A stretch of DNA of 33,634 nt from an uncultured Granulosicoccaceae bacterium (lineage in GTDB: Bacteria; Pseudomonadota; Gammaproteobacteria; Granulosicoccales; Granulosicoccaceae): positions 1 through 33,634 of the forward strand of contig CALFCF010000101.1 in the NCBI GenBank assembly GCA_937951345.1. The letters run 5' to 3'. Below, piece by piece: positions 309 to 4,655 of the stretch. A model generated the notes under the pieces. That model did no database searches, was not told where the DNA came from, and was given only the letters and a program-made list of their open reading frames with translations. The position numbers and the translations under genes were made by a program. The first letter of the stretch is position 1, and each line of letters begins with the position of its first letter.

Positions 309-344
309 CAACCGGGTCGGCCAACCGGGTCGCCAACCGGGTCG
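309..344. repeat. Triplicated 11-bp tandem repeat CAACCGGGTCG
   Basis: The unit CAACCGGGTCG occurs three times, at 309-319, 322-332 and 334-344, with spacers of two and one bases. It lies between the family A element and the first gene. The rest of 262-427 shows no gene. A weak promoter-like TATACT at 384-389 has no good -35 partner. Confidence 0.8.
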
Positions 345-427
345 CGATGCACTGAAACATGCTAGAGTCATTTTAACGGGTTATATACTGACGGACATTT
401 CGGAGCGACATCATTATTTTTCAAGGC

Positions 428-1147
428 TTGGGTAGTTCAGTCAAGAATTACACATCGGCAGCAGCCGGACTTTCCCTGCTCCTGTTCCTGCTGTTCTTTT
501 ATTGGTTCAAGCCGGGTATTGGTTTGTTGGCTGGATACCTGTTGCTGTGCTTGATAGCCGTGTTATCTATCCCCATTTTATATCGATTGGCCGGGTTTTC
601 GCGTCAGGATGAATCACGGTGGCTTGAAGAGCGTGAGGAACGTGACTACCGTGAACTGCTAACTAAGCTCGAGACGACACGTAACCAACTTGCGAAATTG
701 GAAATTAATGAAGGCGTGCAGCAGACCGAACGTCTCACTGATCTTATTGATGATTATCACACGGTCGTAGAGACGCGGTTTTTAGGTAAAAAACACATGC
801 CGCTTGAATATCTTGGTGCTGCTCGACAGGTTCAGAAGCAAGCTGTACAGAATCTATCGGATGTGGTCACTGTAGCGCACAGTATGCAGGCGATAGACAG
901 TAATCGCTCGCGCACTACCAGTTTTGAAAGTCAATTGACTGGGCGCTCTGATAAGCACGACACACTTTATAGCGAGCAGGCCGGGCGAGTCCGCAAACTG
1001 CTTGATGAGAACAACCAGTTGTTTGATGCGTTAACCGAGACCGCTGTCGAAGTGGCTAATATCGACTCGTTCAGTCGCTATGAGCGAATAGATACGTTAT
1101 CCCGTCTAGTCAGTTTGTCGCAAATTGCAAGTAACAGTGGGAAGTAG
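428..1147 (+). CDS. Membrane-anchored coiled-coil protein of unknown function
   Basis: Not recognised. The protein (239 aa from TTG at 428) has two closely spaced hydrophobic segments near residues 13-29 and 32-54. A long charged, helical, probably coiled-coil region follows from about residue 62, rich in Glu, Arg, Gln and Leu, so most of it should be cytoplasmic. The layout loosely recalls XpaC-type proteins found beside TelA genes, but no specific motif supports that name. The start is uncertain: TTG at 428 has only AAGG two bases upstream, while a better GGAG at 402-405 would suit a rare ATT codon at 413 or 416. It leads a same-strand group with the vWA lipoprotein at 1250, the small vWA-like protein and the AI-2E family transporter, suggesting a shared envelope function. 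Confidence 0.6.
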   Translation: MGSSVKNYTSAAAGLSLLLFLLFFYWFKPGIGLLAGYLLLCLIAVLSIPILYRLAGFSRQDESRWLEEREERDYRELLTKLETTRNQLAKLEINEGVQQTERLTDLIDDYHTVVETRFLGKKHMPLEYLGAARQVQKQAVQNLSDVVTVAHSMQAIDSNRSRTTSFESQLTGRSDKHDTLYSEQAGRVRKLLDENNQLFDALTETAVEVANIDSFSRYERIDTLSRLVSLSQIASNSGK

Positions 1148-1249
1148 ACGAGAATTAAAATCTGATGCGATAGGAGCACAGTTGGTTGATGTGCTTGGGT
1201 ATGCAATTGCTGCTATGGATATTTATTCGTTATTAAAGAGGTATAACTA

Positions 1250-2929
1250 TTGATTAGTTTGTTTAACACGCATAGTTGGTATTTACTGTTACTCATGGCC
1301 GCTTTTGTAATGCTATCTGCATGCGGTAAGAAGGTGGATGACCCTGCATCAGCAGCAGAGCATATCCAGGAACTGGTTTTCGATAAAATCCGTCCTGACT
1401 TTGATGAAAATACCCAGCTCGCCAACATAAACTTGCAAAGATCGGAGCTCGTATCGTTGCTGCCTGATTTATCTGAGTATCCGATTGTGTACGGTGAAAG
1501 AGACACTGCGCAAACTGAAGTTGTGGAAATATTTACATCGTCGGAAAAAGCAGGACGTGGTCGAGATGGTTTCTATATCGAGCTTGCAGATGCGTTCAAT
1601 CAGCAGCGGGTAACGTTATCAAACGGAAAACGAGCATCGATTGCGATTCGTAAGATAGCCTCTGGGCTTGGTGCCCAGTTCATGTTAGCTAACCGTTATG
1701 TGCCTGATGCTTTTTCTCCGAGTAATGCGTTGTGGGGAAAAATGCTACAGGCTAATGGTGTCAATGTCGATATTGTGGCTGAACGTACTGCGCCCAATAC
1801 TGCTGGAGTTGTCGTCAAGCGTGATCGTCTTGATGACATCACGACAAACAATCAGCTCGATCTGGAAAAGCTGGTAACCAACGTCAGTAACGGGACGTTT
1901 GCGATGGGATACACCAATCCATTTCAATCAAGCACCGGACTGAATTTTCTATTGACCGTGCTTCATACTTTTGCGAAAGGTAATGAGCAGGAAATGCTCT
2001 CTCCGGCGATTGCCAGTGCGTTCGAGACATTTCAAACAGGCGTGCCCTTTGTCGCACAAACTACGCTGCAAATGCGGGATGCTGCGCAGGGTAGCGGTGT
2101 GCTGGATGGCCTGGTGATGGAGCACCAGACCTGGGTTAACGTCAGAGGTATGAATGACTATACGTTTGTTCCATTTGGCATCCGTCACGATAGTCCGTTG
2201 TACGCTACGCCGGAAGCGGATGCTAACGAGCGGGAAGTATTGTCGCTATTCGCAGAATTTATCAGTAAGCAACAGAAATCGGTTAGCAATTTTGGATTTG
2301 GACGAACGCTCGATTACGAAAGCGCTTACGAAATTGAAGATGTCAGTCTGATTGCGGATGCTCAGCAATTGTGGAAACAGAAAAAATCCGGTGGTCGCCC
2401 GATTGCCGCTGTTTTTGTTGCTGATGTGTCGGGTTCAATGGGCGAAGAACGCATGTTGAATCTGAAGAAAGCGCTAACAGAATCTGCTGACTTAATTAAT
2501 GAATCCAATGCTATCGGATTGGTTTCCTATCACGAGAGGGTAAATGTCGATTTGTCAGTCAGGCCGTTTACCGTGCAACAGAAAGCCTTGTTTATCGGCG
2601 CTGTGCAGCGATTAACCGCTGGTGGTAAGACCGCGACTAACGATGCAGTAGTTGTCGCTGCAAATATGTTGCTGGATTTCAAGAAAGCAAACACTGATCA
2701 CAAATTGATTTTGTTCGTGTTGTCAGATGGAAAAACAAACAGAGGTCTCGAATTCGATGCGGTGCAACGCACACTGGAATTTGCCGGCATTCCCATACAT
2801 ACCATAGCCTACGAGATCAGCTCGGAACATTTGCAGGCACTATCGACGCTATCAGAAGGTGCATATATTGAATCCAGCACCAGTTCTGCTTCATACCGCA
2901 TTGGTAATTTATTGAACTCCGAGATGTGA
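1250..2929 (+). CDS. Lipoprotein with substrate-binding-like region and C-terminal vWA domain
   Basis: A 559-aa predicted lipoprotein. A hydrophobic N-terminus ends in a lipobox (LSAC, Cys25). Residues about 90-370 resemble the periplasmic substrate-binding (PBP type 2) fold seen in 'substrate-binding and vWA' proteins. The C-terminal vWA domain (about 393-545) starts with VFVADVSGSM. Its metal-binding MIDAS looks complete: D392-x-S394-x-S396, a Thr near 461-463 and D493 in LSDG, so it should bind a divalent metal and a protein or peptide ligand. The TTG start is supported by AAAGAGG at 1235-1241, eight bases upstream. It is cotranscribable with the coiled-coil membrane protein upstream and the short vWA-like protein downstream. 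The ligand is unknown; a scaffold or sensor at the inner membrane or periplasm is inference. Confidence 0.8.
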   Translation: MISLFNTHSWYLLLLMAAFVMLSACGKKVDDPASAAEHIQELVFDKIRPDFDENTQLANINLQRSELVSLLPDLSEYPIVYGERDTAQTEVVEIFTSSEKAGRGRDGFYIELADAFNQQRVTLSNGKRASIAIRKIASGLGAQFMLANRYVPDAFSPSNALWGKMLQANGVNVDIVAERTAPNTAGVVVKRDRLDDITTNNQLDLEKLVTNVSNGTFAMGYTNPFQSSTGLNFLLTVLHTFAKGNEQEMLSPAIASAFETFQTGVPFVAQTTLQMRDAAQGSGVLDGLVMEHQTWVNVRGMNDYTFVPFGIRHDSPLYATPEADANEREVLSLFAEFISKQQKSVSNFGFGRTLDYESAYEIEDVSLIADAQQLWKQKKSGGRPIAAVFVADVSGSMGEERMLNLKKALTESADLINESNAIGLVSYHERVNVDLSVRPFTVQQKALFIGAVQRLTAGGKTATNDAVVVAANMLLDFKKANTDHKLILFVLSDGKTNRGLEFDAVQRTLEFAGIPIHTIAYEISSEHLQALSTLSEGAYIESSTSSASYRIGNLLNSEM

Positions 2930-3002
2930 TGTGTACGTTGAAAAACAATCAGGCGGAGTTTCTGCCAGGTTGCAGTGATGCAGTTGACTCACAGAATAAA
3001 TC

Positions 3003-3392
3003 ATGAAGATATTGACGACATTCTCACTTTTTGCGTTTCTACACCTGGTTGGGTGGGGGTTGGCGCATGCCTGGCTCAAAAAAAATCCTCATGAGACCTT
3101 ATTGGTGTTCGATACCTCTTTTTCCATGAAGTCGCATTTTGATGACATGTGGCAGTGGGCCGGTGACTACGCAGCAAATAACCGTTACACGCGAATTGTC
3201 GTGGGCACAGACAAGCAGGAAATAGGCGAATACAATACAAGGCTTTCCCAGGGCGTGGTCTTGAAGTCAGCTTTTGGTAAATTCAGTAGTGAATCACTGG
3301 ATAAGTATAAAGCTGTACGCAATGATAAAAAGATCCTGCTTTCCAATGGTGAGGTTACGCCGGAAAATTGGGAACTAATAGTATTTAGATAA
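3003..3392 (+). CDS. Short vWA-like membrane-anchored protein
   Basis: A 129-aa protein with an N-terminal hydrophobic segment (about residues 3-25) acting as signal or anchor, followed by a truncated vWA-like domain. It begins LLVFDTSFSM, which carries the MIDAS pattern D37-x-S39-x-S41. The later strand that normally reads LSDG reads LSNGEV here, so one metal-ligating Asp is replaced by Asn. At roughly 100 residues after the anchor it is much shorter than a usual vWA domain (about 170-200). It follows a full vWA lipoprotein by 73 bp and precedes an AI-2E family transporter by 21 bp. It may be a reduced partner or paralogue of the upstream protein; that is inference. No upstream ribosome site is strong. 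Confidence 0.6.
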   Translation: MKILTTFSLFAFLHLVGWGLAHAWLKKNPHETLLVFDTSFSMKSHFDDMWQWAGDYAANNRYTRIVVGTDKQEIGEYNTRLSQGVVLKSAFGKFSSESLDKYKAVRNDKKILLSNGEVTPENWELIVFR

Positions 3393-3413
3393 AGGGTACT
3401 CGAGAACCCCGTT

Positions 3414-4655
3414 ATGCGATACGAGCTCGTCAACCGGTTGGTATTGATATTGGTGCTGGTAGCCATATCAGCCATGTTTTTCGTTGTTATAAAACCATTT
3501 CTGGTGGCGATCTTTCTGGCAGCACTTTTTTCCACGCTGTTTCATTCGCTCTATGTTCGAATACTTTCCGCGCTGGGTGGTCGCAAGTCGTTGTCCTCGT
3601 TGGCTACCTTGTTGATCGTGACTTGTTTTGTGTTTATTCCCGTTTTTTTTCTTCTGTCGGCTGTAGTCACACAAGCACTGGATCTGGCTTTTAGTATGCG
3701 CCCATGGGTGCAACGGCAGTTATCGAACCCGGATGCGGTTTCCAACCTTGCGCAATCTATCCCGTTTTATGAGCAATTACTGCCTTATCAGGACGTCGCC
3801 AAGGAAAGGCTTGGGGAAACATTCGGCGCGATAAGTGGTGCGTTTATCGACTTTGCACAGGCTGCGACTGTCAGTACCTTCAACGCATTGCTAATGGGTT
3901 TTATTATTATTTACACCATGTTCTTTTTTTTGAAAGATGGTGAGCGAGTCTTATATTATATTTTGTACTATCTGCCGTTACGGGACGAAGACGAAAAACA
4001 GCTTCTGAGGCGCTTCAAATCTGTCACGCGTGCAACACTTAAAGGTACGGCGGTGATAGGTGTTTTACAGGGAGCTCTGGCAGGTGTTGCACTTTGGTTT
4101 GGTGGCATGCCAAGCGCGTTGTTTCTGTCTGTCGCAATGATGTTTATGTCGGTGGTGCCGGGTATTGGTACGGCGCTTATCTGGTTGCCTGCAACTGTCT
4201 ATATAGCTTTCAACAATAGTCTTTTTATGGGATTGGGCATCGGTGTATTTTGCGCTTTGGTTGTTGGCAGTATCGATAATATATTAAGACCGAAGCTCGT
4301 CGGCAACGACACTCGCCTGCACGAACTTTTGATATTTTTCAGTACGCTGGGTGGGTTGCTGCTGTTTGGTTTTTGGGGGTTTGTCATTGGGCCGATAATC
4401 GCAGCGTTGTTTGTCACTGTATGGCAGTTATATGGAGAGGAGTTCAAGCAATGGTTGCCGACAACTGCATTTATCCCATCAGATGGAATTCATGATTTGC
4501 CGGGGCTGGAAGATAAAAGTTTCGCAAGCAATGAATCCGGGCAAACGATAATTAAGGGACAAGCTGCAGGCGGACAATCAGGCGAATCTGATGTTGATGC
4601 GAAAAGGGAAGTGAAGGTGGCAACACGTAACGATTCTGATGACCCCACAGTATAA
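3414..4655 (+). CDS. AI-2E family (PerM/YdiK-like) membrane transporter
   Basis: A 413-aa polytopic membrane protein of the AI-2E transporter family (PF01594, formerly UPF0118). Hydrophobic segments occur near the N-terminus (two between residues about 8 and 45, one at 60-85), one near 160, and a cluster between 210 and 340. Family-typical stretches are visible: SVVPGIGTALIWLPA and GNDTRLHELLIFFSTLGG, followed by a glycine-rich FWGFVIGPIIAALF. Members have been linked to quorum-signal export, sodium/proton antiport or general efflux, so the substrate cannot be assigned. The last 55 residues form a polar, probably cytoplasmic tail. It is the last gene of the vWA cluster, 21 bp after the short vWA-like gene, and an AT-rich spacer follows it. 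Confidence 0.88.
   Translation: MRYELVNRLVLILVLVAISAMFFVVIKPFLVAIFLAALFSTLFHSLYVRILSALGGRKSLSSLATLLIVTCFVFIPVFFLLSAVVTQALDLAFSMRPWVQRQLSNPDAVSNLAQSIPFYEQLLPYQDVAKERLGETFGAISGAFIDFAQAATVSTFNALLMGFIIIYTMFFFLKDGERVLYYILYYLPLRDEDEKQLLRRFKSVTRATLKGTAVIGVLQGALAGVALWFGGMPSALFLSVAMMFMSVVPGIGTALIWLPATVYIAFNNSLFMGLGIGVFCALVVGSIDNILRPKLVGNDTRLHELLIFFSTLGGLLLFGFWGFVIGPIIAALFVTVWQLYGEEFKQWLPTTAFIPSDGIHDLPGLEDKSFASNESGQTIIKGQAAGGQSGESDVDAKREVKVATRNDSDDPTV

Follow-up and report, generated by a model that had tools for sequence, protein, structure and literature searches.

Proteins of the TelA and XpaC families are widespread, and in the sections consulted of one account their mechanism is called unknown (PMC12791056). 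The same sections describe a Listeria TelA mutant with greater sensitivity to nisin and tellurite, again by an unknown mechanism. The excerpts at hand from two further reports include xpaC-yaaN in the core sigma-W set of Bacillus subtilis (PMC3498285) and list XpaC-like and telA1 genes as up in a study of CesSR envelope stress in Lactococcus (PMC3139573). Furthermore, sub-membrane structures have been proposed for TelA together with TerF, a protein with a von Willebrand factor type A (vWA) domain (PMC7824862, in the part consulted). Here, these systems are compared with a set of three genes, A, B and C, from an uncultured Granulosicoccaceae bacterium (assembly GCA_937951345.1). The whole stretch of DNA analysed, termed the window, has 33,634 nucleotides and is an entire contig (CALFCF010000101.1, C101) of a 4.49 Mb draft genome. 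Gene A encodes a membrane protein, gene B a lipoprotein joining a solute-binding region to a vWA domain and gene C a miniature vWA-like protein; they are followed by gene D, which encodes a transporter of the AI-2E/PerM family. The initial annotation, made from the letters of the window, had treated all four as one cluster, and the four open reading frames (ORFs) do adjoin one another, all open and all on the + strand, where it had placed them. Comparison between genomes shows that A, B and C form one predicted module, inherited as a unit, and places D outside it.

An alignment of B was compared with 84,980 species genomes, which yielded 94 relatives; the best 80 of these were kept and, together with the window, make up 81 loci, 64 of the type found in the window (A-B-C type) and 17 of a second, Clostridia type. 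In the A-B-C type, C follows B in 64 of 64 loci and A precedes it in 63, the contig of the remaining locus (L128) beginning inside B. Loci with all three genes have them colinear on one strand, none out of order. All three were likewise present in 21 of 21 loci (20 fetched, plus the window), and A and B were found in the identical 32 of 95 relatives, that is, in 32 of the 48 within the family and in none of the 47 outside it. Since relatives encode the same proteins, the ORFs of A, B and C are true genes and have not arisen by chance. The A-B-C-type loci are from Pseudomonadota by title, except for one metagenome-assembled genome titled Aquificaceae, and the module is rare: in a sample of the class with a limit of E 1e-60, it was found in 5 of 369 genomes, one of which is that of the window. 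The flanks of these loci vary by lineage and are mostly unrelated (e.g., transporters, outer-membrane proteins, purine/folate genes). Among Granulosicoccaceae and others, no flanking partner recurs across lineages beyond A, C, the A-like gene described next and TelA, and no other family stands beside B in more than 12 of the 81 loci.

The Clostridia-type loci, which are mostly from Clostridia by title, share part of this arrangement. A gene of similar size to A precedes B in 16 of them, and the one without it (L161) begins inside B; gene C was found in none of the 17. The preceding gene is homologous to A (hhalign 90%, E 1.5e-6), a relation that persisted with more sequences (89%, against 0.4% for a reversed control), and its profile also matches 15 of the 64 A-B-C-type loci.

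The initial annotation had proposed an envelope sensing or export module of four genes, in which the AI-2E/PerM protein would be the transporter. The family assignment of D stands, its Pfam AI-2E_transport match (E 2e-46, 159.1 bits) lying above the cut-off of 34.3. Moreover, D starts 21 bp after C in the window, so local co-transcription is possible, and the two other genomes of the genus likewise have it after C. A relative of D, however, lies near B in only 4 of the 81 loci, namely in the window, in two further genomes of its genus and in one of a different genus, where it is about 2.4 kb off; for the other 77 loci its absence applies to the stretch available, many stretches ending at contig ends. 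AI-2E_transport was also found in 13 of 14 control genomes and is therefore a general family. Membership of D was ruled out on the count of 4 in 81, the module is therefore A-B-C with D as a local neighbour, and a four-gene system with D as its transporter is hardly credible. What survives of the proposal is that A, B and C stay together in varied surroundings as co-conserved envelope genes; the export idea loses its transporter.

Gene B encodes the best conserved protein of the three. It has a Pfam VWA match (E 7.5e-14, 52.8 bits against a cut-off of 23.8), and its structure model (mean predicted local distance difference test score, pLDDT, 88.5) combines a type II solute-binding fold with a vWA domain. 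In Foldseek searches the model matched ferric ion-, sulfate- and molybdate-binding proteins at E values from 1.5e-9 to 1.1e-7, with HitA (6ivy) at 1.5e-9 and a sulfate-binding protein (1sbp) at 6.5e-9, and vWA domains were matched too. At the level of profiles the solute-binding region is less apparent: Pfam SBP_bac_11 scored 17.1 bits, below its cut-off of 25, and a search of solved structures with B matched vWA regions alone. Five residues which we take to be the metal ion-dependent adhesion site (MIDAS) of the vWA domain, D392, S394, S396, T461 and D493, are invariant in 32 of 32 rows, as is the cleft motif MGYTNP. All 15 rows of the first alignment have the lipobox cysteine C25; in its place, the Clostridia-type rows have a longer hydrophobic N-terminus, as judged by eye. 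The earlier description of B as a lipoprotein with a ligand-binding-like region and an intact-MIDAS vWA domain is thus in agreement with the model and with the conserved site. Compared with HitA, Sbp and ModA, the type II solute-binding proteins whose fold its N-terminal part shares, B differs in its fusion to a vWA domain, in matching SBP_bac_11 only below the cut-off, and in that no ATP-binding cassette transporter genes recur beside it. From TerF it would differ in being an exported lipoprotein with a solute-binding domain.

Gene C can be linked to vWA proteins by its fold only, because profile comparison with B gave no usable similarity (0.3%, and 0.5% in a second comparison). Its AlphaFold2 model (pLDDT 91.2) has a small vWA fold behind an N-terminal helix, its likely anchor. 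A vWA domain was the top Foldseek match (E 7e-4) and the sole match with E below 0.001, and VIA-align returned Z values of 8.5-9.8 across the 50 rows listed, most of them named as vWA or I domains, which bears out the initial description of a miniature vWA-like protein. A complete MIDAS is absent from C. In its DxSxS motif D37 is found in 41 of 41 rows and S39 in 40, while the third position is S in just 15 (otherwise A in 23 and G in 3); the loop-3 position is D in 34 of the 41 rows and N in the window. Gene A has two hydrophobic stretches close to its N-terminus and a helical tail, both seen by eye. Neither A nor C has a Pfam match above cut-off, and a profile search of solved structures found no match for either at E up to 0.1. 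None of A, B, C or D has an NCBIfam match above the model cut-offs, and among the PHROGs families only A was matched, weakly (E 0.0069), with no stretch passing.

Two vWA folds side by side, one of them with a complete MIDAS, also suit a different scheme, in which B and C would act as a chaperone pair in a module for metal or cofactor insertion or assembly. Such a pair would resemble systems of vWA proteins with AAA+ ATPases of the MoxR type, and B has a weak profile match to a cobaltochelatase subunit in NCBIfam (E 2e-8, far under the cut-off of that model). We consider such a role distinctly unlikely: B is extracytoplasmic, judging by its lipobox, no family except A, C, the A-like gene and TelA stands beside B in more than 12 of the 81 loci, and no AAA+ ATPase was named among the flanking proteins tested, a whole-genome search for MoxR not having been made.

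The recurring neighbour that connects the module with a described kind of system is TelA. Among the 17 Clostridia-type loci, 15 have, directly after B, a protein of about 380 aa which belongs to a TelA cluster; of the two exceptions, L150 has another gene at this place and L156 stops inside B. Members of this cluster also occur in 4 of the 64 A-B-C-type loci (Motiliproteus, Parendozoicomonas and two Reinekea), where they are encoded next to A on the opposite strand. Two of these 19 linked proteins were scanned with Pfam TelA, both scoring above the cut-off. In a tree of 40 rows, a branch with 100/100 support has all 19 linked TelAs on one side, together with L209, a partial TelA from a genome which has A-B-C on another contig, and with five duplicates (L210-L214, labelled unlinked, which are genes of linked rows fetched again). 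The opposite side holds 15 rows, including the TelA of the window genome, and constitutes the canonical TelA group. The tree left out L193 and L194, 2 of the 23 TelA loci, which had no match to the linked-TelA profile, so that the separation looks cleaner than it might in a full sample. Beside the genes of the window module no TelA (PF05816) was found, the single match in this genome being on contig C76 instead of C101. The window thus carries an envelope neighbourhood of the TelA type in a variant that lacks TelA.

This neighbourhood resembles XpaC-TelA (YaaN) operons in several respects. The Clostridia-type order of an A-like membrane gene, B and TelA recalls them, as does the divergent TelA beside A-B-C in the four gammaproteobacterial loci, and A is, like XpaC, a membrane protein with a helical tail, as seen by eye. 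The differences are that the window module is without TelA, the TelA of its genome standing elsewhere in a row with XpaC and an SPFH-like protein, and that A has no detectable relation to XpaC. We know of no counterpart of B or C in XpaC-TelA pairs. TelA adjacency and XpaC homology were both tested and neither was found in the window, which is why A-B-C is not filed under the XpaC-TelA module. With the Ter system (TerF), the likeness consists in a vWA domain and in an envelope and stress context with TelA (PMC7824862, as far as consulted). The statement of the initial annotation that no described system has this composition therefore holds only in part: relatives adjoin TelA, so that a neighbourhood of a described kind is not far away. 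Literature searches found no paper describing the A-B-C gene set, from which its absence from print cannot be claimed.

Two side observations concern these neighbouring systems. On C76 of the window genome (G000), positions 334-3730 of locus L003 encode XpaC, TelA and, after them, an SPFH-like protein whose C-terminal part has a GYF-like stretch, the latter two named by eye. In one Maritalea porphyrae locus (L127, 5550-6323), a TerC-family gene, a Ter-type neighbour, lies upstream of A.

The initial annotation had started gene A at TTG 428. This codon is not conserved, and relatives indicate ATT 413 (or ATT 416) instead; aligned relatives have ATT where L075 has ATG. Two culturable carriers, Thiothrix fructosivorans (L145) and T. 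caldifontis (L135), also show ATT at the corresponding position. For a survey of the start, loci were anchored on the first membrane helix, and 61 of 63 were assessable, 2 being cut. The zone searched began 40 codons ahead of the helix landmark and ended 16 codons ahead of it, with a Shine-Dalgarno (SD) duplex of -5 kcal/mol or better as cut-off. In 17 of the 61 loci the zone holds no ATG, GTG or TTG at all, and an SD-supported ATT is present; in 8 others, the window among them, a canonical codon is present without SD support alongside an SD-supported ATT. Altogether, an SD-placed ATT without any SD-supported canonical codon is found in 25 of the assessable loci. A canonical codon is SD-supported in 33, of which L089 and L106 also hold a better-supported ATT, and the remaining loci comprise 1 with ATC only and 2 with nothing. 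One of the 17 ATT loci, L090, is doubtful, its ATT being unusually close to the helix. Among 17 loci chosen because they share ATT at a given position, the SD energy at that position averaged -7.7, compared with about -0.7 to -1.5 at ten comparison codon positions (-40 to -31); the three positions after the ATT are equally good because the windows overlap. The other two genes served as controls, with 62 (B) and 63 (C) of the 64 loci readable: ATG, GTG or TTG stands at the homologous first codon of C in 61 of 63 loci, and 12-45 codons before the lipobox of B in 61 of 62. Gene A probably starts at AUU. In the consulted part of one report, infC and pcnB are the only E. coli genes given with AUU starts, and AUU is tied to discrimination by translation initiation factor 3 (IF3) (PMC9410913). 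Gene A shares the start codon with these two genes; it differs in being an uncharacterised membrane protein and in that AUU stands at one alignment position in many loci, others having ATG, GTG or TTG.

We tentatively read A-B-C as a device that senses at the envelope and protects the membrane, of the general kind found in TelA neighbourhoods, a reading that is possible and to which we give rather less than even confidence. The link to envelope stress is drawn because of the reports on TelA and XpaC genes cited at the outset, each in the parts consulted. B, anchored outside the cytoplasmic membrane, would bind a small ligand, over which its cleft closes; proteins with the folds nearest to its binding domain bind oxyanions, metals or small organic molecules. 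Closure of the cleft might then expose or orient the MIDAS face of the vWA domain, whose site could bind an acidic residue of a partner; the simplest candidates for this partner are the miniature vWA fold of C and a loop of A. The signal would in turn be passed across the membrane by A, whose helical cytoplasmic part may act there in a membrane-protective response. In Clostridia and a few gammaproteobacteria A would act with TelA, and in the lineage of the window without a dedicated one. The weak AUU start may keep A scarce, its amount depending on translation initiation (IF3). A bolder version is unlikely on our estimate: an undescribed trans-envelope signalling route in which the MIDAS of B addresses C and A, the latter as a two-helix relay set by AUU and IF3, and in which the Clostridia core feeds a TelA subfamily of its own.

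Several observations weigh against this interpretation. The TelA of the window genome stands on a contig other than that of the module, next to XpaC (PF10112, E 1.2e-28), and falls within the canonical group. TelA was found in 21 of 26 genomes with B, the 5 without it being all of the A-B-C type and including two of Maritalea porphyrae; within the family, TelA is present in 26 of 32 genomes with the module and in 16 of 16 without it, several of the genomes counted being incomplete drafts. With five A-B-C genomes lacking TelA, and with TelA independent of the module in the family, a dependence of A-B-C on TelA is unsupported. As an XpaC homologue, A was tried and rejected: it has no PF10112 match, and hhalign against 22 XpaC sequences gave 1.5%, compared with 5.3% for the reversed control, a more remote relation being possible. 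Furthermore, C has a degenerate MIDAS and was found in none of the 17 loci of the Clostridia type, therefore it cannot be the universal partner of B, a role that A or its homologue can fill. As to the start of A, the SD cut-offs were fixed after first looks; since the loci are also interrelated, the evidence for AUU is strong but not independent, and its sequence-only basis counts on the same side.

The uneven company of TelA also bears on a simpler possibility, namely that B is a ligand-dependent scavenging or signalling lipoprotein which A and C merely stabilise or localise, as a scaffold or in adhesion, with no stress link of the TelA type. The 5 of 24 A-B-C-type genomes searched that lack TelA fit this idea, as does the patchy spread of the module (32 of 48 family genomes, 5 of 369 in the class sample). 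On the other hand, TelA adjacency in two distant groups, with a TelA group of its own, is hard to place within it, and it is also set against B being the best conserved of the three with an invariant MGYTNP; we regard this possibility as rather improbable, with an appreciable residual chance. Patchy distribution would equally suit an anti-phage defence system, and TelA and Ter proteins have been proposed in biological conflicts (PMC7824862, as far as consulted). However, no PADLOC model matched A, B, C or a linked TelA at E up to 0.01, and the flanks tested are mostly metabolic or envelope genes, with no defence gene named among them, which leaves defence very unlikely.

The layout of the locus is given in Table 1. 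A and B are separated by 102 bp, B and C by 73 bp and C and D by 21 bp. With the TTG start, A would have 239 aa (428-1147) in place of 244 aa with ATT 413. Relatives are 60-76% identical to the window protein for B (14 others), 22-65% for A (21 others) and 25-52% for C (21 others). In a sequence scan, promoter- and terminator-like sites at the locus were at chance level.

Table 1. Features of the A-B-C locus and of the adjoining gene D, in window coordinates
Feature	Position	Strand	Basis
Gene A, membrane protein; C-terminal part helical and probably cytoplasmic	413..1147	+	ORF, family alignment, profile
Predicted start of translation for gene A, with SD-like CGGAG at 401-405 and AUU at 413-415 (or 416-418)	401..418	+	
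Gene B, lipoprotein with type II solute-binding and vWA domains, 559 aa	1250..2929	+	
Gene B, lipobox Cys25 (codon)	1322-1324	+	First alignment
Gene B, solute-binding region, about residues 79-350	1484..2299	+	Limits from secondary structure of the model
Gene B, vWA domain with complete MIDAS, about residues 385-542	2402..2875	+	Pfam VWA, residues 388-536
Gene C, N-terminal helix (residues 2-27) and miniature vWA fold with degenerate MIDAS, 129 aa	3003..3392	+	
Gene D, AI-2E/PerM family transporter, local neighbour, 413 aa	3414..4655	+	Pfam AI-2E_transport

Upstream of gene A, the window begins with a repeat. At positions 13-261 there is an element of 249 bp, bounded by terminal inverted repeats of 23 bp (96% complementary), which encodes no evident protein and resembles a high-copy miniature inverted-repeat transposable element. 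At least 40 near full-length copies exist in the same genome, the window copy counted, the others being 94-97% identical; this number is a lower bound because 40 of 154 candidates were scored. Several copies are at contig ends, the one in the window among them. Between this element and gene A, positions 304-344 contain three tandem copies of a 16-nt unit with CAACCGGGTCG.

For the study of envelope functions, A-B-C offers three small components, two of which are without any family model. A TelA subgroup paired with an extracytoplasmic ligand-binding and vWA protein hints at the signals to which such systems may respond. Should the AUU start prove real, A would be a further conserved AUU-started gene besides infC and pcnB, and if A does act as a relay whose amount is set by AUU and IF3, envelope sensing would be coupled to the state of translation initiation.

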